From assembly GCF_024256385.1 (NCBI RefSeq), contig NZ_JAMLFW010000001.1, forward strand, positions 4,340,001 through 4,404,000: DNA of 64,000 nt. The letters are read 5' to 3'. This document shows positions 1,384 to 44,527 of this stretch, piece after piece. The translations under genes and the position numbers were made by a program. The notes beneath the pieces were generated by a model that searched no databases, had not been told where the DNA came from, and was given only the letters and a program-made list of their open reading frames with translations. Within the stretch, counting starts at the first letter, position 1. Every line of letters begins with the position of its first letter. The stretch is from Anatilimnocola floriformis. Lineage in GTDB: Bacteria > Planctomycetota > Planctomycetia > Pirellulales > Pirellulaceae.

Positions 1384-2235
1384 ATGCGGCTTGGCTACAA
1401 CACCAACGGCTGGGCGCATCATGACCCGTTCGATGCCATCGACCTGATCGCCGAGCTCGGCTACCGCAGCGTGGCCATCACGCTCGACTACGGCCCACTC
1501 AATCCGTTCGCCGCTGATTGGCCGTCGAACTTACAACGATTGCGGCGGAAGTTGAAAGAACGTCAACTGCGATCAGTCATCGAAACCGGCGCCCGCTATC
1601 TGCTCGATCCCCGTCGTAAACACCAGCCGACATTACTGGCCGTCGATGATGGCGGTCAAACTCAGCGAATTGACTTCTTACTGCGTTCCCTGCGCGCGGC
1701 CGCTGAACTCGAGAGCGATTGCGTGTCGCTTTGGTCGGGAACTCCGGCAGACAAAGATCAGGCCGATGACGAGCAGTTGCTCGAACGCTTGGCCAGCGGC
1801 TTGCAGCCGTTGCTGCGCGAAGCCGAATCTCTCGGCACACCGATCGGTTTTGAGCCGGAGCCCGGCATGTTCATCGATTCGATGAGCCGTTTTCAACGGC
1901 TGCTGCAGTGGATCGATTCGCCGCAATTGAAATTGACGCTCGACCTCGGCCATTTGTATTGCCAGGGCGAAGTGCCGATTGCCGATTACATCAGCCGCTG
2001 GAGCTCGCGGATCGTCAACGTGCACATCGAAGACATGCGGGCCGGTGTGCACGAGCATCTGATGTTCGGCGAAGGCGAGATGGAGTTTCCGCCGATCATC
2101 GCCGCCCTCGGTGAGGCGAACTATCACGGTGGCGTGCATGTCGAGCTCAGCCGGCACAGCCATCTCGCTCCCACGGCAGCCGCTCAGTCGTTCGCCTTTC
2201 TCCATCCGCTCGTTAAACCTTACGCAATCGGTTAG
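1384..2235 (+). CDS. Sugar phosphate isomerase/epimerase-like TIM barrel protein
   Basis: A 283-residue protein of the xylose isomerase-like / AP endonuclease 2 TIM-barrel superfamily. Candidate metal ligands are at the expected strand ends: E157 in GFEPEPG, D187 and H190 in LDLGH, H214 in VNVHIED, and E254 in VHVELSRHSH. No signal peptide or membrane segment is seen, so it is probably cytoplasmic. It begins 27 bases after the UbiA gene and is almost certainly co-transcribed with it, so it may make or modify the polar acceptor or act on the prenylated product; that link is inferred from position only. It resembles the EboE side of EboC/EboE pairs but is shorter than the cyanobacterial proteins I recall. 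The substrate is unknown. Confidence 0.8.
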   Translation: MRLGYNTNGWAHHDPFDAIDLIAELGYRSVAITLDYGPLNPFAADWPSNLQRLRRKLKERQLRSVIETGARYLLDPRRKHQPTLLAVDDGGQTQRIDFLLRSLRAAAELESDCVSLWSGTPADKDQADDEQLLERLASGLQPLLREAESLGTPIGFEPEPGMFIDSMSRFQRLLQWIDSPQLKLTLDLGHLYCQGEVPIADYISRWSSRIVNVHIEDMRAGVHEHLMFGEGEMEFPPIIAALGEANYHGGVHVELSRHSHLAPTAAAQSFAFLHPLVKPYAIG

Positions 2236-2415
2236 CGAAAGTCGCGCAGCGATAGCAGCTGAATCGCGATCCTGAAAAACGCTGCTTTCTCCCCGTCCCC
2301 GCCGCCGATCCTATTCAACGGACGAGAAAATTGCGTCTCGGCGTCGGGATTCCGCCGCGAACACATCGCACAGTCGCTGGGGAACAAGGCCGTTCCAGGC
2401 AATAGGGAGCGGGCC

Positions 2416-3093
2416 GTGAGTTATCGACGTTATCTAGTGGCCGGCGGCGTGATCGCTGGCGGCGCTGCCTTGGCCTGGCCTTTCCGCCACCCGCAGCAGC
2501 AACGGCCCGCGCCGCAAGCGCTCGCGGTCAACCACGAAGTCCCCGGCGTGACCTGGTCGACGCCGCAGGATCTGACGCATCAGGTCCATTCGCAGCCCGG
2601 GATTTCACCAGTTCCAGAACTGCCGCCAGTCACGAATGCCATGGGCACTTCGCCGGGAATCCCGGGGCGTCTCACACGACCAGCCACGTACCAAACCGTT
2701 CCCGCCAACGGCGCGCCACTCGAGTCGCTGCCCGCTCCGCCTCTTTTGCCAATGGCATATGAGTCGTTGCTGGTTCCGGTCGGCAGTGAGCCTCCCGCTC
2801 CGAAAACGCAACCCGCGACCGCGAATCTGCCGGTCCACGAACCGCTCCTCCCGTCAGCCGATGAAGTCGCCGCAGCCAAGGAAGCCCAAGTGAGACCTGG
2901 GCCACTGTGGCGGAAGCATCGCATCGTGGAAGGCGACAACCTGGCAGCCCTCGCGATCCGTTATCTCGGCGATGCCTCCCGCGCCGGTGAGATACACGTG
3001 GCCAACATCGATCGGCTGATGAGCCCAGATATTCTGCCGCTCGGTGTAACGCTGCTAATCCCGCCGCGCGTTTCGAGCGAGGCACTGCCCTAG
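2416..3093 (+). CDS. LysM domain protein with N-terminal membrane anchor
   Basis: A 225-residue protein starting at GTG with an upstream AGGGAG. Residues 5-24 form one hydrophobic segment (VAGGVIAGGAALAWPF) without a clear signal peptidase site, suggesting an anchor. A proline-rich low-complexity region fills about residues 25-165. A single LysM domain closes the protein: HRIVEGDNLAALAIRYLGD, then VANIDRLMSPDILPLGVTLLIPP. LysM domains bind N-acetylglucosamine-containing glycans, usually peptidoglycan, so a cell envelope role is likely. The following gene converges from the other strand across a strong hairpin. No enzymatic domain is visible. Confidence 0.8.
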   Translation: MSYRRYLVAGGVIAGGAALAWPFRHPQQQRPAPQALAVNHEVPGVTWSTPQDLTHQVHSQPGISPVPELPPVTNAMGTSPGIPGRLTRPATYQTVPANGAPLESLPAPPLLPMAYESLLVPVGSEPPAPKTQPATANLPVHEPLLPSADEVAAAKEAQVRPGPLWRKHRIVEGDNLAALAIRYLGDASRAGEIHVANIDRLMSPDILPLGVTLLIPPRVSSEALP

Positions 3094-3098
3094 CCCGA

Positions 3099-3133
3099 GG
3101 CGGGAACGAGCGTTACTCCGCGCTGTTCCCGCC
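3099..3133. terminator. Bidirectional terminator-like hairpin
   Basis: Arms GGCGGGAAC (3099-3107) and GTTCCCGCC (3125-3133) pair perfectly, and the loop holds a second nested pair AGCG/CGCT. It lies between the convergent LysM and VWA genes. There is no U-run, so intrinsic termination is not certain. Confidence 0.6.
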
Positions 3134-3138
3134 TGCAT

Positions 3139-5544
3139 CTACACCAAGCCCAACTTCTTTCTCAAAAGCCATTCGCTCGCAAGCAAGCTGACGAACACGA
3201 TCGGCAGCCAGGGCAGATTCCATAGCGGCTCTGGCGGCAGCGACTCGACACGCACATGCCGCCCCGGCGGCAGCGCGGCGAGCAACTTGCCGGCGTCATT
3301 CACACGATAGAACTGCCCCTCGCTGGCCTTCGCTGCTGCTTGCAGATCGGCGGCCTTCATTTGCACTTCGGCCAGTTCGCCCGGTGGCGATTGCACGCGA
3401 AACTCGCGACTTGGGGGCCGACCAGGAAAGACCGGCGCGGCAATCCACGCCCGATATCGGCCCGGCGGCAAAGTGTCGATCACGGCTTCAAACAAGCCAC
3501 GATTGAGTGCATCCCGCCGGAGTCTTACGCTGCGTCTCTGTCCGGCTTCGTGCTGAACGATGCACAGCACGCCATCGTCTTCGGTCGGCGCGGCGCGCTC
3601 ATCCAGGAAGCGGGCGCGCAGGCGAATGGCTTCGCCCTGTTGATACTCATCGCGGTCCGCCGTCAGCTCGACGCCATCTGCTTCGCCGAGCAATTTCGAT
3701 CGGCTGAGATAACGAATCGTTTGAATCCAATAGCGAGCAAAATACATATCCCCCGCGCGGAACCGCCAGCGGTACGTTTCGTCGGTTGCATGAAAGACAA
3801 CCTTTCCCGCGCCGTGGAACTGCAGTGTGATGATCGGCAGCGGTTGATTGTCGAGACCTCGCAGCTCCGGATGTTCGGCCAGCACGCGCACGCCGGGCCG
3901 CAGGTCGTTGATCCGGGCAAACCACCGTAACTGCGGCAGCGTTTCATTCCAGAGCTTAAGCGTGTCGGCCGGCGAATCGGTCAACTGCAGCGCGGGACTG
4001 TTCTGACCCAGCGGCGTGAGTCGCGGGCGGAAGCCGTTCTTGATGATCGTGTCGCTGTCGGGAACCGTGAACGAATCGACATTCGCCGGAAAGAGCGCGG
4101 CGAGAGGCGAATCGCGATAGGCCAGCGGCAGATACTTCGGCCCGGCCATCATGATCAAACCGCCGCCACGAACATTGACGAATTCATAGATGTTCTCGAG
4201 CACGGAGTTCGTCAGCAGCGCCGGATTTACATCGCCGAGAATCAGCACGTCGTACTTGAAAAGTTCTTCGCGACTGACAGGAAAAACCGCCTTCGCCGAC
4301 TTATCGGTCTCGGCAAACTCCACGTCGGCTTCCTGCAGCACTGACCGAAAGCCCCGCTCTTCACCTTCCTGGCCAGGACGATTCAGCTCCCGCTCCAGCA
4401 CGTTCTTCAGATAACGAAATTCGTAGTTCGGATACGACTGGGCATACAGCACGCGGAGCTTTTCTTCGCGCACTGCCACGCGCCGCGAGAGCTTGTTATT
4501 TGTCGTATTCATCTCGCGCGGTTGCGGCTCGACCTGCACGACGTAATCAAAGTCACCCTGCTCGGCTGGCCGCGTGCGAAGTCGCACCACTTGCGATGCC
4601 TCGTCGCCGGTGACCTTCAGCGTTTGCTCGGCGAGCGGTTCGGACTGACCATCGCGGAACAAACTTACCTTGGCATTGCCGCTGTAGCCGCGCGAGGACA
4701 AGCGAAATTCGAAATTGATCGCATCGCCGAGAAATACCGCCTCATCAGCGAGCAGATCGGCCAATTGCAGATCGATCGGAGGCCGTTCGTTGCCGATGCC
4801 GATGAAGTAGAGCGGGATCGATTTGCGACGAGCATACGCGGCGGCATCTTGCAGCGAGCTTCCTTCCGTCGTGATCCCATCGGTCAACATCACGATGGCT
4901 GCCGTCGGTCGGCCACGCTGCGTTTCGATGACTTCCCGCAAGCTATCGCCGAGTCGACTGGCCGGCAGTTTCGCTTCGATGGCGTTCACGTTTTGCACGA
5001 GTGATGTCGCTTTCGTCTCCAATGTTCGGCCCGGCTCCGACATGCGAACAACCTTGAGGCGATAGCGCGATTCGAGTTCCTTCAGCAGTTTCTCGTTGCT
5101 CTCGAGTAGCAGCGTCTTCGCAATGTTGAGTCGCGTGAGTTCGTCGAATTTCAAAGCTTTCAGCCGCGCCGCGAGATTCGCGCGCAGCGACGCATCTTCC
5201 AGTTCATCCGCGAGCGCCATGCTGCCAGAATCGTCGATGACGACAACCAAATCCGGCAGGTCGGTTCGATGCTGCTGCCAGGTCCAACCCAGCAGCATCC
5301 AGGCGAGGACCATCAACATCAGCACGCGAATCGACGCAAGCACGGTCTTGCCGAGCCTACCTGCTGATTCGCGCTCGCGAATGTAAATCGTGACGACAAA
5401 TGCGATGCCGCCGATCAGAATCGTCCAAAAAAGCCACGCCGGCCACGGCCAGGTGGAGTCGAGCGTGTTTTCGAGTGCCTGCGAACCGGCGGGGCGATCG
5501 CCTTGAAGCAGTCGGAGTACGAATTGTTTGAGCGAGTCGTTCAT
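3139..5544 (-). CDS. Large VWA-domain membrane protein, last gene of a MoxR/Bat-type operon
   Basis: Taking the ATG at 5544 gives 801 residues; this start overlaps the stop of the upstream gene as ATGA, so it is preferred to a frame extending eight codons further. Two transmembrane segments near the N-terminus (about residues 35-57 and 70-92) precede a von Willebrand A domain with the MIDAS motif DDSGSM. A middle region resembles the class I glutamine amidotransferase-like fold often found in these proteins (YDVLILGDVNP, GGGLIMMAGP). A final transmembrane helix lies next to the C-terminus (WLPIVFVSLLASEWLL). Translational coupling to the BatA-like gene indicates that the two proteins act together at the membrane. 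The substrate of the system is unknown. Confidence 0.85.
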   Translation of the reverse strand: MNDSLKQFVLRLLQGDRPAGSQALENTLDSTWPWPAWLFWTILIGGIAFVVTIYIRERESAGRLGKTVLASIRVLMLMVLAWMLLGWTWQQHRTDLPDLVVVIDDSGSMALADELEDASLRANLAARLKALKFDELTRLNIAKTLLLESNEKLLKELESRYRLKVVRMSEPGRTLETKATSLVQNVNAIEAKLPASRLGDSLREVIETQRGRPTAAIVMLTDGITTEGSSLQDAAAYARRKSIPLYFIGIGNERPPIDLQLADLLADEAVFLGDAINFEFRLSSRGYSGNAKVSLFRDGQSEPLAEQTLKVTGDEASQVVRLRTRPAEQGDFDYVVQVEPQPREMNTTNNKLSRRVAVREEKLRVLYAQSYPNYEFRYLKNVLERELNRPGQEGEERGFRSVLQEADVEFAETDKSAKAVFPVSREELFKYDVLILGDVNPALLTNSVLENIYEFVNVRGGGLIMMAGPKYLPLAYRDSPLAALFPANVDSFTVPDSDTIIKNGFRPRLTPLGQNSPALQLTDSPADTLKLWNETLPQLRWFARINDLRPGVRVLAEHPELRGLDNQPLPIITLQFHGAGKVVFHATDETYRWRFRAGDMYFARYWIQTIRYLSRSKLLGEADGVELTADRDEYQQGEAIRLRARFLDERAAPTEDDGVLCIVQHEAGQRRSVRLRRDALNRGLFEAVIDTLPPGRYRAWIAAPVFPGRPPSREFRVQSPPGELAEVQMKAADLQAAAKASEGQFYRVNDAGKLLAALPPGRHVRVESLPPEPLWNLPWLPIVFVSLLASEWLLRKKLGLV

Positions 5545-7730
5545 CGGACACCTCGCCCGAGATGCCACGCCACGAATGACTCTGCCATGAGCAAGCCGAA
5601 GACGCCGAGGAGCAATTCACGAAACCACGATTTGGGTGGACCAAATTGGCCCCCCGCAACCGACGCCTGCGTCGCCGCGCTCGCTCGCAGCGACTCGGGC
5701 AAGGCATCGACGTCGAGCCGTTGCAGATTGCTTTCGCGCGTGTCGGGATTTACTACGAACGTGGCCAACTTTGGTTCGCCCGTTTCTGTAGAGTGAATCG
5801 TGTAAATGCCGCTGCGACTCTGCCCCGGGACCGACCAATGCGTCTGTCCCTGTTCATCCGTTACGGCCAGGCGATCTTCGCTGCCATCCGGCTTTTTCAA
5901 GACCACCACGGGCTTCGGCAGCACGTTGCCCATGAAACCCTGCACCGGCTGGCTGATCTCCGCGGTTCGATCGCGTTCATCATTGGCGGCAATGAACGCA
6001 GCCGTCTCCTGCATCAGCGGCGGGAAGCTGGGCCAGGTCGACAGCGATGACCAAGGTCGCGGCGGATCAACGGTTCGATCGACCGACAACGGCGAAGCAG
6101 CCAGCGCGAGCAGCAAACAACGGCCGCGACCGTATTCATGCTCGACGAGCACAGGATCGCCGCTGGAAAGAGCCAGCGCGGTGTTCGCATCTTTGACGGG
6201 AGTGAGTTGGTGATAAGTCCACACCGGTGTCGTCAGCAAGCCCGAACGTTGGTGGCCGCGAAAGGCCGCGATGAGCGGATGCTTGTACTGCAATGGATCA
6301 ATGCGCAGTTCGTTGCCGCGTTTCACGTCGCCGATCTTTGCCGGCAACAGCGATTTGTCGCCGGCGAGCGCATCGTTGTAGCTCATCGCTTGAATCTGAT
6401 CACCGAGGATCACCAGCAGATTTCCACCGCGCTCGACGTATTGCCGCAGGACGAGCCCTTCGTTTTGACTGAGGCGGCCGACGTTGCAAAGAGTAATCAG
6501 ATCGTAGCGCTGCAGGTCCCCTTCAATCAGCTCACTCTCGGTCGCACGGCGGACATCAATGCGAGCTTGATCCTGCTGCGGCCGCAGCGCGAGCATCAAG
6601 TGATCGGCTTCGCCATGGCGGCCTTCGATGCAAAGCACCGACAGCGCCCGGCGAACGTTCACCCACCGCCAACGATGATTGTCGACTGGCAATTGATCGT
6701 CGAGCAGCACTGCTGCGACCACATGCTGACCGGCAGCATCGATCCGCTGATTAAACGATACGCTCGCTCGCCCGTTCGCAGGCAAGTCAGCGCGCTGCTC
6801 ATTCACACGTTGACCATCGACAAACAGCGCGACGGTCAACCGCTGGGGACTCATCGAATTTGGAACACCGCCCGTTTCACTTTTCAAATCAACGCGAAAC
6901 GTGGTCGCATCGTTGAGCGTAACCCACGGCGACTCTGCCACGAGTTCAGTAATCGCCTGGTTCGGCGCGTCTGCCTGGCCGACGTCGACCAGCGAGACGC
7001 TGATCCCCTTTTTCTCCCAATCAGCCAGCCGTTGCAGGCTCTCGGTCGTGCTGATCTCGGCCCACGTATTCTTACCGAGGTCGGTGAAGATCATGACTCG
7101 CCGCTGCGGCAGCACGCCGTGCTTTTTCTCTGCTTCGGCCAGCGTTTGCTCGATCGTCTGTAGCGCGCTCGTAAGATTCGCCACGCCATGCGTCAGCTGC
7201 AGCGCGGCCAACTCTTGCTTCACATCGTTGGCTTCAAAAGCAGGATCGCCAATGATCGTTTGCGTCGGCTGCGCCATGAGCAGGAGCGAATAACCGGTCC
7301 CTTGCGGATTGCCGTCGATCACTTCACTGGCCAGACGCCGGGCTTCGTCGAAACGCGAGATACCCGCATGACGATAATCCATCGAAAACGAGCCGTCGAT
7401 CACGAGCAGGCAATGGCCTCGGTCATTCAATCCCTGGCCGGTCAAACCGCGCCAGATCGCCGAGCCGATTTGCTGCGGATTCGACAACGCGAGCGCGAGG
7501 ACAATCGGAATCGCCACGCGCAGAGCAAGAAGCAGCCATTGCTCGAACTTGATCCGCCGCGAGTGCTTCTGCATCGCAGCGAGGAGAAACTTCATCGCGG
7601 CCCAGCGAGTTTCGCGAAACTGCCGACGCGTCCATAGGTGGATCAACAGTGGCAACGCGGCAGCAGCAGCCCACCACAGCATAATGCTGGAGCCGAATTG
7701 CCAAATCGCGAGTAAGTGAGCTGCGAGCAT
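5541..7730 (-). CDS. BatA-domain and VWA-domain membrane protein
   Basis: A 729-residue protein. Residues about 13-90 form the BatA / aerotolerance regulator N-terminal domain with two hydrophobic helices around the positively charged link (HLWTRRQFRETRW). A VWA domain follows with a DxSxS metal site (D112, S114, S116 in IDGSFSM). A middle region reads like a GATase1-like domain (ERGGNLLVILGDQ), then beta-sandwich segments, and one C-terminal transmembrane helix (about 700-722). Genes of this type go with MoxR ATPases and DUF58 proteins and are thought to assemble or chaperone metal-dependent or cell-envelope complexes. The expected upstream partner DUF58 is separated from it by an inverted-repeat nuclease element ending only about 11 bases before this start codon. 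Confidence 0.87.
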   Translation of the reverse strand: MLAAHLLAIWQFGSSIMLWWAAAAALPLLIHLWTRRQFRETRWAAMKFLLAAMQKHSRRIKFEQWLLLALRVAIPIVLALALSNPQQIGSAIWRGLTGQGLNDRGHCLLVIDGSFSMDYRHAGISRFDEARRLASEVIDGNPQGTGYSLLLMAQPTQTIIGDPAFEANDVKQELAALQLTHGVANLTSALQTIEQTLAEAEKKHGVLPQRRVMIFTDLGKNTWAEISTTESLQRLADWEKKGISVSLVDVGQADAPNQAITELVAESPWVTLNDATTFRVDLKSETGGVPNSMSPQRLTVALFVDGQRVNEQRADLPANGRASVSFNQRIDAAGQHVVAAVLLDDQLPVDNHRWRWVNVRRALSVLCIEGRHGEADHLMLALRPQQDQARIDVRRATESELIEGDLQRYDLITLCNVGRLSQNEGLVLRQYVERGGNLLVILGDQIQAMSYNDALAGDKSLLPAKIGDVKRGNELRIDPLQYKHPLIAAFRGHQRSGLLTTPVWTYHQLTPVKDANTALALSSGDPVLVEHEYGRGRCLLLALAASPLSVDRTVDPPRPWSSLSTWPSFPPLMQETAAFIAANDERDRTAEISQPVQGFMGNVLPKPVVVLKKPDGSEDRLAVTDEQGQTHWSVPGQSRSGIYTIHSTETGEPKLATFVVNPDTRESNLQRLDVDALPESLRASAATQASVAGGQFGPPKSWFRELLLGVFGLLMAESFVAWHLGRGVR

Positions 7731-7739
7731 TCTTCGTTT

Positions 7740-8168
7740 TTACTCCCTCTCCTCGGTACTCCGGGGAGAGGGTTGGGGTGAGGGGCTAGAGCTGCGCGGA
7801 ACCTTTGCCGTCCGTTCGACGCACTTGCTCCAAACCACTTCTAAAAATCCTTCCAGCGATTCGTCAACGTCATGATTTCCAAATCTCAGCACGCATAACC
7901 CTTGCGATTCAAACCAGACAACTCGCGCTGCATCGTACTCTTCCTTGCCGATATGCGTTTTGCCATCGAGCTCGACGATCAGTTTAGCCTCAGCACAATA
8001 AAAGTCGGCGATGAAGTTCCCCATTGCGTACTGTCGGCGAAATTTAAATCCCTTGAGTTTGCGATCGCGAAGTGCATCCCAAACCATTGCTTCAGCGTTG
8101 TTCGGTTGTTGGCGCATCTCACGAGAACGCTCGATGAACAGCGGTGACCGATTTCGGTGGATCGTCAT
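7740..8168 (-). CDS. DUF559 domain endonuclease (Vsr-like fold)
   Basis: A 142-residue protein of the DUF559 family, related to very short patch repair endonucleases and the restriction endonuclease-like PD-(D/E)xK fold. Conserved features: the helix AEAMVWDALRDRKLKG, the strand KFRRQYAMGNFIADF with D55, and the core VELDGKTH (E66, D68, H72), then VLRFGNHDV. D55, E66 and D68 are the likely metal-binding catalytic residues. About the last 17 residues (SSSPSPQPSPRSTEERE) are encoded by the left inverted repeat and are probably not part of the fold. The ATG at 8168 lies 36 bases inside the right repeat. Related genes are widespread; whether this one moves its own repeats, acts in repair, or is only a passenger is not known. 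Confidence 0.85.
   Translation of the reverse strand: MTIHRNRSPLFIERSREMRQQPNNAEAMVWDALRDRKLKGFKFRRQYAMGNFIADFYCAEAKLIVELDGKTHIGKEEYDAARVVWFESQGLCVLRFGNHDVDESLEGFLEVVWSKCVERTAKVPRSSSPSPQPSPRSTEERE
7742..7788 (+). repeat. Terminal inverted repeat, left copy
   Basis: A 47-bp repeat with an internal hairpin (CCCTCTCC near 7745 pairing with GGAGAGGG near 7764-7771) followed by a G-rich tail GGTGAGGGGCTA. It is the inverse of 8204-8250 with two mismatches. On the minus strand it encodes the last codons of the nuclease (SPSPQPSPRSTEERE), so the protein's tail is repeat-derived. Confidence 0.9.
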
Positions 8169-8203
8169 GGATGCGTCTCATTATCGAAAATCTGCCCCGA
8201 GGT

Positions 8204-8250
8204 TAGCCCCTCACCCCGGCCCTCTCCCCGGAGTACCGAGGAGAGGGAGT
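8204..8250 (-). repeat. Terminal inverted repeat, right copy
   Basis: Inverse of the 7742-7788 repeat with 45 of 47 bases matching (CCGG where the other copy has CCAA). It contains the same hairpin, with GGTACTCC-type loop sequence. It lies upstream of the nuclease start and 33 bases downstream of the DUF58 stop codon. Confidence 0.9.
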
Positions 8251-9141
8251 GAACTGCTCGCGGCGCGAGCCTTTGTATTTGACTAACTCATTTTCATCCG
8301 GCGCGAAACCAATACCTTCGCCAGCAACTGATCAAATGGCGTCGACGTATCGGCCAAGACGTAATCAATCTGCTGTTTCCGGCAACCGAGTTCTAATTGC
8401 TCGCGATAGGAATTGAACTCGTGCAAATATGCTTGCCGCAAAAGTTCGGGTTCGGCAAAAACTTCCGGCAGCGATTCCAATCCGTTGAATTTGGTTGGGC
8501 CTTTGAAAGGGAAGGTCAGCTCAGCTGGATCGAGGACGTGAAAGACGATGACATCGTGCCGGCGATGACGGCAGTGACGCAGACCGGCGAGGAGACTGGC
8601 AGGATCGTCCAGCAAATCGCTGATCACTACCACGACGCCTCGCTTGTTTAATCGCTCAGCCAGTTCGTGCAGAATCGGCCCTGCCGATGTTTTTGGTCCC
8701 GGCTGTGATTTTTCCAGGACTTGAATGATCTGCTGCAAGTGCGAGGGACCACCACTGGCGCGGATCATCGCGCGCAGTTGTGAGTCGAACGTTGTGAGAC
8801 CGACGGAATCTTGTTGTTGCAGCACCAGCCAAGCGATGGCAGTGGCAAGGAGTTGGGCGTACTCCGCTTTTGAAAGCGCAGTACCACTGCTTTGATAGGT
8901 CATGCTCTCGCTGGTGTCGACGACGAGATGGCAGAGAAGATTGGTCTCGTCTTCGTATTGCTTGAGATAGAACTTGTCGGTTCGGCCGAAGACTTTCCAA
9001 TCCAGATGGCGCAGATCGTCTCCCTGCGAGTACTCGCGGTGTTCCGCGAACTCGATCGAAAAACCATGCCGCGGGCTAGGGTGCTGGCCGGCGATGTAGC
9101 CCTCGACGACGTGCCGGGCTCGCAACCGCAGGCCGCGCAGT

Positions 9142-10194
<1,053 letters not shown>

Positions 10195-10556
10195 GTTTTT
10201 TACGCTGAAGAGAACGACGAGCAACAGCCTACATCTTACCTCAGTCGCATGGCTGCTTGTGATGCGGATACTGTTCGACCACTGCGGGCGGCGGTTTTAG
10301 TTGATGCCGCTCTTCTGGCCATCGTCGCGAGTGCCTCAACCCTAACGGCGGGCGAAAGAACTATTGAAGACGAGAAGTCAGCCAGCCACAGTACACCTGC
10401 CTGCGACGCACCCCGCAGAATCGTTACAGCCGGCACAATCGATACAATCGCGCCGCACATTCCGAGAAATCTGCGTAACCGCATAAATCGGCGGAATCGA
10501 ATTAACCAGCCCTAAGCATACTGGCAGCCATATCACGCACTTTGTGAGGCCCCGTC
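10195..10556. other. Intergenic region between MoxR operon and acyltransferase
   Basis: A 362-bp divergent region that must hold the promoters of the MoxR operon (-) and the acyltransferase (+). An 82-codon minus frame (10236-10484) starts with a hydrophobic stretch but has low-complexity content and no recognisable family; I do not call it. No RNA gene seen. Confidence 0.5.
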
Positions 10557-44403: not shown

Positions 44404-44445
44404 TCCCTCTCCTCGGTACTCCGGGGAGAGGGTTAGGGTGAGGGG
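44404..44445 (+). repeat. Repeat copy, left member of pair
   Basis: Matches the left repeat of the DUF559 element at 7744-7786 almost base for base (TTAGGGTG where the other has TTGGGGTG), with the same hairpin. Confidence 0.85.
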
Positions 44446-44478
44446 TTCATTTGGGTACCCGCGTCGGCATTAGCTTCC

Positions 44479-44527
44479 AGCCCCTCACCCCTGCGCTCTC
44501 CCCGTGAGTACACGAGGCGAGGGAGTA
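44479..44527 (-). repeat. Repeat copy, right member of pair
   Basis: Inverse orientation. The start AGCCCCTCACCCC and the end GAGGGAGTA agree with 8204-8250, but the hairpin arm is altered (CCGTGAGTACACGAGGCG), showing decay. Confidence 0.8.

Follow-up and report, generated by a model that had tools for sequence, protein, structure and literature searches.

Among the described systems closest to the locus analysed here are the REP elements with their RAYT enzymes and the BoxC/PIT (TMECO) repeats. In the RAYT/REP arrangement the gene of a small Y1/HUH protein lies between repeats, and many short gene-free pairs and single copies accompany it. PMC4666352 dates the discovery of BoxC in Escherichia coli to the 1990s and describes BoxC/PIT as a G/C-rich intrastrand triplex motif, counting 3610 copies across 262 proteobacterial genomes: 23 in MG1655, 29 in strain 55989, one in IHE3034 and none in Salmonella. 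Close inverted pairs of BoxC are frequent, five of them in MG1655. The triplex was formed in vitro; as of 2015 a stable triplex in vivo was without support, and neither transposase nor integrase remnants were reported near the repeats (PMC4666352). DUF559 and YcjD are not mentioned in that paper.

The DUF559 family (PF04480) is widespread, and Pfam still gives its function as unknown. YcjD, its E. coli member, was earlier assigned to the PD-(D/E)XK superfamily, Vsr being a neighbour by profile (PMC1189080), a DUF559 gene has been named as a member of the EDxHD family (PMC9403480), and the Caulobacter DUF559 protein VsrA is a proposed T:G mismatch endonuclease, whose action in a methyltransferase mutant sets off the SOS response (PMC12907096). 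In experimental evolution of Legionella pneumophila, a segment with a transposase and DUF559, present in three copies, was named as a recombination hotspot (PMC12308824). We found no link between DUF559 and BoxC-type repeats in the open-licence literature, which does not prove that none has been made. The findings presented below lead us to propose that compact DUF559 proteins are probably the dedicated enzymes of BoxC/PIT-type palindromic repeats, much as RAYTs are of REPs.

The window, that is, the whole 64-kb stretch of Anatilimnocola floriformis DNA under analysis, carries a DUF559 gene between two arms of such a repeat (see the table). A sequence-only reading had described these arms as 47-bp inverted repeats with two differences. 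The inversion stands, and length and match need correction: the arms are 50 nt each, 94% complementary and spaced by 415 nt. Both are hairpins, with DNA-fold z-scores of -4.35 and -2.98 (each against 200 shuffles), as that reading had claimed of the repeat ends; it was equally right that one repeat encodes the last 15 or so DUF559 residues and that the unit lies between DUF58 and BatA genes near MoxR, which the ORFs and Pfam matches of the neighbours confirm. Its view of the repeats as the gene's own holds for enclosure and fails for exclusivity, since the repeat pattern has 170 matches genome-wide. A core pattern, GGGGAGAGGGNNGGGGTGAGGGG, allowed up to three mismatches, has four matches in the window and a mean of 0.00 in 100 shuffles.

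Features of the DUF559 unit and its surroundings in the window
Feature	Position	Strand	Basis
DUF559 (PF04480) compact nuclease gene, 142 aa	7740..8168	-	ORF list, Pfam profile, structure model
First repeat arm, holding the DUF559 stop and about 15 last codons	7739..7788	+	sequence, inverted-repeat search
Second arm, inverted, upstream of the DUF559 start	8204..8253	-	inverted-repeat search
Hairpin of first arm: stem of 12 bp, 7745-7756 pairing with 7761-7772; TACT loop	7745..7772	+	sequence, DNA fold
Third purine block GGGGTGAGGGG, 3'-stem-like, facing the gene	7775..7785	+	sequence
Second arm: 3' stem and third block	8207..8229	-	pattern match
Gene-free close inverted pair of the window repeat, REPIN-like, approximate ends	44405..44525	.	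pattern match
DUF58, upstream neighbour, context outside the unit	8283..9185	-	ORF, Pfam
BatA/VWA protein, downstream neighbour, context outside the unit	5541..7730	-	ORF, Pfam
MoxR-type AAA protein, neighbour	9142-10224		ORF, Pfam

The repeat consists of a hairpin followed by a purine block that nearly copies its 3' stem. This pyrimidine-purine-purine anatomy, hairpin plus third purine block, is that of BoxC/PIT/TMECO; the window arms differ in having longer loops. The published BoxC pattern, CCCTCNCCC-N3-6-GGGNGAGGG-N3-GGGNGAGGG (PMC4666352), has no strict match in the window, and a long-loop form defined in this analysis is found at 7745 and 44405 (+) and at 8247 (-). Matching the long-loop form alone, the window arms share the anatomy of the class and not the strict definition of BoxC.

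The window protein matches PF04480 (E 1.4e-34; 118.6 bits against a cut-off of 20.6) as its only Pfam domain, and the Y1/HUH transposase domain PF01797 is absent from it. When a structure model built from 52 aligned sequences (mean pLDDT 89.4) was searched with Foldseek, the best PDB match was 3hrl, the NGO0050 protein of Neisseria gonorrhoeae, at E 3.4e-8, the sole match below 0.001; further matches were I-Bth0305I (1.1e-3), mitoribosomal proteins (from 1.3e-3), PvuRts1I (6.8e-3) and Vsr (1vsr, 0.046). Sequence-profile searches of the PDB returned 3hrl at 1.7e-34 (41% identity to the window protein) and 3r3p at 2e-5. Residues E26, W30, R44, Q46, D55, H72, D79, R82 and R95 are invariant in the 52 sequences; E26, D55, H72 and D79 among them, candidates for the catalytic E-D-x-H-D residues, stand in a predicted fold similar to that of I-Bth0305I. 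The mitoribosomal matches belong to Toxoplasma and Tetrahymena and possibly reflect a Vsr-like fold of RAP-type domains.

The catalytic domain of the EDxHD enzyme I-Bth0305I resembles the window protein by sequence (2e-5) and by predicted fold; the window DUF559 differs in being free-standing, intergenic and flanked by repeats and in lacking the extended DNA-binding region described for I-Bth0305I (PMC3943268). Vsr is a fold match and VsrA a DUF559 protein; however, the role proposed for VsrA is in mismatch repair, and the available text of PMC12907096 draws no connection with repeats. YcjD and NGO0050 are compact DUF559 proteins like that of the window, with repeats of the window kind near both genes, the differences being that inverted arms are missing at the two E. 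coli loci and that the copies around the Neisseria gene are direct (arm score, as defined below, 15). The resemblance to RAYT/REP lies in the arrangement: the gene of a small enzyme is framed by repeats, and many short pairs and single copies occur without it. What differs is the enzyme, which is of the Vsr/PD-(D/E)XK type instead of Y1/HUH, and the kind of repeat. The sequence-only reading had likewise told the enzyme's fold from that of RAYTs, and the separation holds for enzyme and repeat: PF04480 is the only domain, and the DUF559-repeat pattern is found at none of 22 Y1_Tnp (RAYT-type) loci, 10 from A. floriformis and 12 from relatives.

The pattern GGGGAGAGGN{2,6}GGGTGAGGGG accounts for the 170 matches in the 8.93 Mb of the A. 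floriformis genome; its backward-read version has none in the same 8.93 Mb. A profile search finds three DUF559 genes in this genome, all enclosed by repeats of the window class; the third is decayed, with an internal stop, and is flanked on each side by a close repeat pair. Spacing and orientation were analysed for 100 of the 170 sites, all on contig C1. Among these, the 18 pairs of neighbours within 150 nt have one and the same orientation, so that gene-free REPIN-like pairs of constant orientation, a feature of RAYT/REP, are present for the window repeat. Neighbours at 151-3000 nt comprise two +/-, three -/+, two +/+ and two -/- pairs, and both +/- pairs enclose DUF559 genes. It had been anticipated that repeats equally common far from any DUF559 gene, in the absence of filled/empty pairs, would speak against a mobile unit. 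On this point the outcome is mixed: most copies do lie far from DUF559 genes, as expected of non-autonomous copies, whereas both gene-size +/- pairs in the sample of 100 hold DUF559 and one filled/empty pair of block size was found (see below). The 10 Y1_Tnp matches of A. floriformis (L053-L062) all have spanning inverted repeats unlike the DUF559 repeat, which makes it seem that several enzyme/repeat pairs are housed in one genome. Spanning inverted repeats occur at 2 of the 12 Y1_Tnp loci of relatives; as a control for the DUF559 repeat, the Y1_Tnp loci are strong for A. floriformis only, the relatives having from zero to a few repeat copies. A RAYT as mover of the repeat was considered and rejected on the absence of the strict pattern from all 22 loci.

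Enclosure of DUF559 genes by inverted copies extends far beyond this genome. We took 80 of 493 confirmed DUF559 candidates in named genomes, 75 of which had sufficient flank, and scored the left flank against the reverse-complemented right flank, counting scores of at least 16 as positive. By this arm score 53 of the 75 loci are positive (two of them, L086 and L089, being near-duplicates), compared with 4 of 970 positions shifted within these loci; a score of at least 30 is reached by 25 of 75 loci and by none of the 970. Other ORFs of 100-400 aa in these loci reach 16 in 3 of 244 cases. DUF559 genes are thus enclosed by inverted copies beyond chance, a further feature of the RAYT/REP type, and, going by record titles, positive loci span at least seven phyla: Planctomycetota, Pseudomonadota, Chloroflexota, Bacteroidota, Cyanobacteriota (L128), Myxococcota (L118) and WOR-3 (L093). 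Of the 75 DUF559 genes, 56 have a pyrimidine-purine-purine block no more than 300 nt away, as do 12 of 461 control positions and none of 75 shuffles; the strict BoxC pattern is near 8 of 75 genes (1 of 461 controls) and the long-loop form near 24 (2 of 461).

The unit varies within this set. The remaining 22 of the 75 loci score below 16, and some arms (L112, L118 and L128, for instance) are long and lack the three-block form. When copies on both sides were called by the block finder, 26 of 75 loci had feet inward, 8 outward and 16 the same direction, in classes that overlap; the outward and same-direction copies indicate a heterogeneous unit. In 35 of the 53 positive loci the frame terminates within or past the right arm, an upper figure for repeat-encoded tails because some frames run far past the arm. 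Among seven loci from a plasmid collection, one, in Sinorhizobium meliloti Ak57, reaches the arm score (104), and the others score 15 (N. gonorrhoeae), 14 and 14 (Azospirillum), 10.5 (Sinorhizobium M103) and 10 and 9 (E. coli); five of the seven have three-block motifs on one or both sides, and both E. coli loci lack them, the copy there carrying a mismatch in its stem. The gonococcal DUF559 gene (L223, NZ_CP119142.1) is flanked by repeat copies in direct orientation. An identity of the Sinorhizobium repeats with RIME elements, for which we found no support in print, is not claimed.

Within the planctomycetes, a spanning inverted pair was seen by eye near the gene (left arm within 200 nt, right within 300 nt) at 14 of 22 single-domain DUF559 loci (L012-L035 minus L030 and L031, which are cut by contig ends), and at none of four loci of multidomain DUF559 proteins (L037-L040). 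In a stricter pass, 28 ORF rows had an arm score of at least 18 and 14 fell below; six of these 14 are readings of one tandem array in genome G020. One further ORF was too short, and two loci yielded no ORF. At locus L243 (G020:C5:329442-339537), some 9 kb contain five DUF559 ORFs with interspersed matches to the repeat pattern, which suggests a larger unit repeated in tandem; the arm test found no close arms there.

Gene and repeat also go together across genomes. In 393 Planctomycetota genomes we compared DUF559 calls at E <= 1e-20 with matches to GGGAGAGGN{2,8}GGTGAGGG, the backward version of which gives stray single matches in some genomes, at most three per genome. At least one copy is present in 66 of 95 DUF559-positive and 62 of 298 DUF559-negative genomes, and at least 10 copies in 31 of 95 against 19 of 298; six of these 19 have a DUF559-bearing congener in the sample. 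Among 98 nearer relatives the repeat is present in 20 of 25 with DUF559 and 14 of 73 without. The statistics of all these comparisons ignore phylogeny. When only Y1_Tnp-positive nearer relatives are considered, the figures are 20 of 25 and 13 of 47. The E. coli genome among 14 control genomes gave no PF04480 match, though the MG1655 derivative has ycjD; the control strain may lack ycjD, or the first-pass scan may miss the gene.

Arm sequence tends to follow protein similarity. For between-genome planctomycete pairs, arm similarity correlates with protein identity with a Mantel r of 0.346 (27 loci; none of 2000 permutations as high), in a run that left out eight single-domain loci (L014, L015, L020, L027, L028, L030, L031 and L035) and included two hand-set rows (L011 and L034). 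A rerun in which the eight loci were given and the hand-set rows removed gave a weaker correlation in the same direction (r 0.237; 27 loci; 2 of 2000 permutations). In 19 of 22 contrasts, and in 16 of 18 in the rerun, a gene's arm resembles the arm of its closest protein relative from a different genome more than it does the arm of another DUF559 gene of its own genome; the contrasts share loci and are hence non-independent. The clade with the protein signature FRRE-P..YT-DFCC (L011, L032, L033, L034, L242, L246 and L247) has, by eye, an extra G in the arm blocks in all seven genomes, one with a mismatch. The two intact genes and the decayed third of A. floriformis thus carry different repeat subtypes.

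The E. coli gene ycjD lies between sapF and fabI, is present in a derivative of K-12 MG1655, and has a reading frame that terminates in a decayed repeat copy. Copy no. 9 of the published BoxC table has coordinates that we take to fall at ycjD/fabI. The ycjD-fabI stretch of the MG1655 derivative holds CCCTCGCCCCTCTGGGGAGAGGGTTAGGGTGAGGGG, the exact letters of that entry (Table 1 of PMC4666352). Neither of two E. coli DUF559 loci has inverted arms reaching a score of 16 (9 and 10). At least 80% of ycjD plus repeat is covered at one place in 3363 of 5426 E. coli genomes. Copy counts come from 60 rows spaced evenly over 5399 records; two of the 60 (113 and 232 kb) were excluded as plasmids. The ycjD-positive strains (n = 37) have 13-30 repeat places (median 21) and ycjD-negative strains (n = 21) have 1-20 (median 4; 11 with four or fewer), a comparison confounded by lineage. 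Strains NY1601 (20 copies) and 21AH057 (18) have many repeats without ycjD. According to PMC12817139 the gene follows phylogroup: it is reported from A, B1, C and a further two sequence types, with other lineages having eefRABCD at that position. Upstream of fabI in the three ycjD-less strains examined, efflux-operon genes (RND adaptor, TetR regulator) replace ycjD; together with the reported eefRABCD (PMC12817139) they point to allele replacement, and E. coli was accordingly rejected as a clean empty site.

Elsewhere, the search for places with and without the unit gave a partial answer. The best DUF58 homologues of four relatives, 84% (G001), 58% (G038), 54% (G020) and 48% (G026) identical, stand at loci without DUF559, orthology being unproven for G020 and G026, and the G001 and G038 genomes have no DUF559 match anywhere; the gene is therefore not a shared fixture of this place, as it would be had all relatives carried it here. 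In the sister species G001 (L143), the interval between DUF58 and BatA is taken up by some 380 nt of different sequence that seems to contain a small ORF. That sequence disqualifies G001 as an exact empty site of the window unit, and for the second A. floriformis unit (L002) one flank alone matched in G001. One gene-free A. floriformis pair stands opposite a shorter intergenic stretch of G001, with divergence too high for a base-exact junction; another examined against G001 sits at a synteny break. Some copies are old, given that the single copy at L256:536 is matched by a counterpart in G001. The complete unit of Sinorhizobium sp. K101, gene plus two repeat pairs, lies between flanks that nearly adjoin in Shinella (BLAST: K101 8-2118 and 2852-4236 against Shinella 8-2118 and 2099-3479; 81.5% and 77.4% identity). 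The empty/filled pair that had been called for thus exists at block size; no base-exact empty site was found in the loci compared (A. floriformis/G001, Sinorhizobium/Shinella and E. coli). The sequence-only reading of a mobile or repeat-maintaining nuclease unit is partly supported: enclosure and the four relatives' places without DUF559 make it look like such a unit, of which movement and nuclease action on the hairpin ends are the putative part.

Enclosure, co-occurrence, partial specificity between arm and protein, and phyletic breadth amount to an association between compact DUF559 genes and the repeat. Could the genome simply be so rich in repeats, with 170 pattern copies in 8.93 Mb, that copies fall beside any gene? 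The controls (4 positives among 970 shifted positions and 3 among 244 other ORFs) contradict this and leave it next to no probability. More serious is the thought that DUF559 is mere cargo caught between copies that a RAYT, another transposase or host recombination moves. Repeats do occur in DUF559-less genomes, and among DUF559-negative relatives Y1_Tnp accompanies them (13 of 47, versus 1 of 26 without Y1_Tnp). Yet no other gene-size +/- pair exists among the 100 sites analysed, other ORFs rarely have arms, the Y1_Tnp loci lack the pattern, the DUF559 family is enclosed in seven phyla, and the arms follow protein similarity; we therefore regard the cargo explanation as unlikely.

DUF559 might alternatively act as a Vsr-like or structure-resolving nuclease near repeats that stall forks or are prone to mismatches, without spreading them. 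The activity proposed for VsrA (PMC12907096) and the presence of Vsr among the fold matches agree with such a role; a repair enzyme, however, would need no bracketing by the repeat, and its arms would not be expected to diverge along with the protein, so that this reading appears distinctly unlikely. It is still less plausible, indeed quite improbable, that we are dealing with a plain homing endonuclease engaged in intergenic homing, for which the repeats are merely a preferred target or scar. Similarity to I-Bth0305I, by profile and by Foldseek, and the EDxHD assignment of a DUF559 gene (PMC9403480) fit this scenario, but a target site alone does not explain gene-free pairs whose orientation is constant in 18 of 18 cases among the 100 sites.

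The tendency of DUF559 genes to sit between repeat copies suggests the nuclease as the missing partner that spreads or maintains the repeat. That it acts on the repeat is inferred from the association, the partial specificity, the breadth, the fold and the analogy with RAYT/REP. In our reading, the nuclease gene with repeat copies on both sides would be the autonomous unit, of which short inverted pairs and single copies would be the non-autonomous offspring. The nuclease would recognize the folded repeat when it becomes single-stranded, at a replication fork or during transcription, and would nick or cut there. Hydrolytic nucleases alone do not transpose DNA, a fact that counts against our main reading. 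As Vsr/PD-(D/E)XK-type enzymes hydrolyse DNA without rejoining it, copies would have to spread in a homing-like manner through host break repair or replication restart, rather than by strand transfer. This passage from cutting to spreading is put forward as a proposal and is the weakest step. With some reserve, we entertain the idea of a second, non-homologous route to the REP/RAYT lifestyle, in which a single-domain Vsr/homing-type hydrolytic nuclease recognizes a hairpin-plus-third-block (potential triplex) repeat and disperses it by the break repair that it provokes.

If the proposal is true, the BoxC/PIT-type repeats seen in E. coli, Neisseria, rhizobia, planctomycetes and elsewhere would form one class of nuclease-driven selfish repeats, a function would be suggested for DUF559, and REP-type parasitism would extend to a second enzyme fold. 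With a candidate enzyme that has a solved relative (3hrl) and is present in the MG1655 derivative, the origin of BoxC-type repeats becomes testable. As to the gene-free pairs of A. floriformis, one form, 136 nt from core to core, recurs at several places (L190, L194-L196, L199-L201) with near-identical inner and outer sequence, resembling a young MITE; shorter gene-free pairs are similar in length and divergent in inner sequence.
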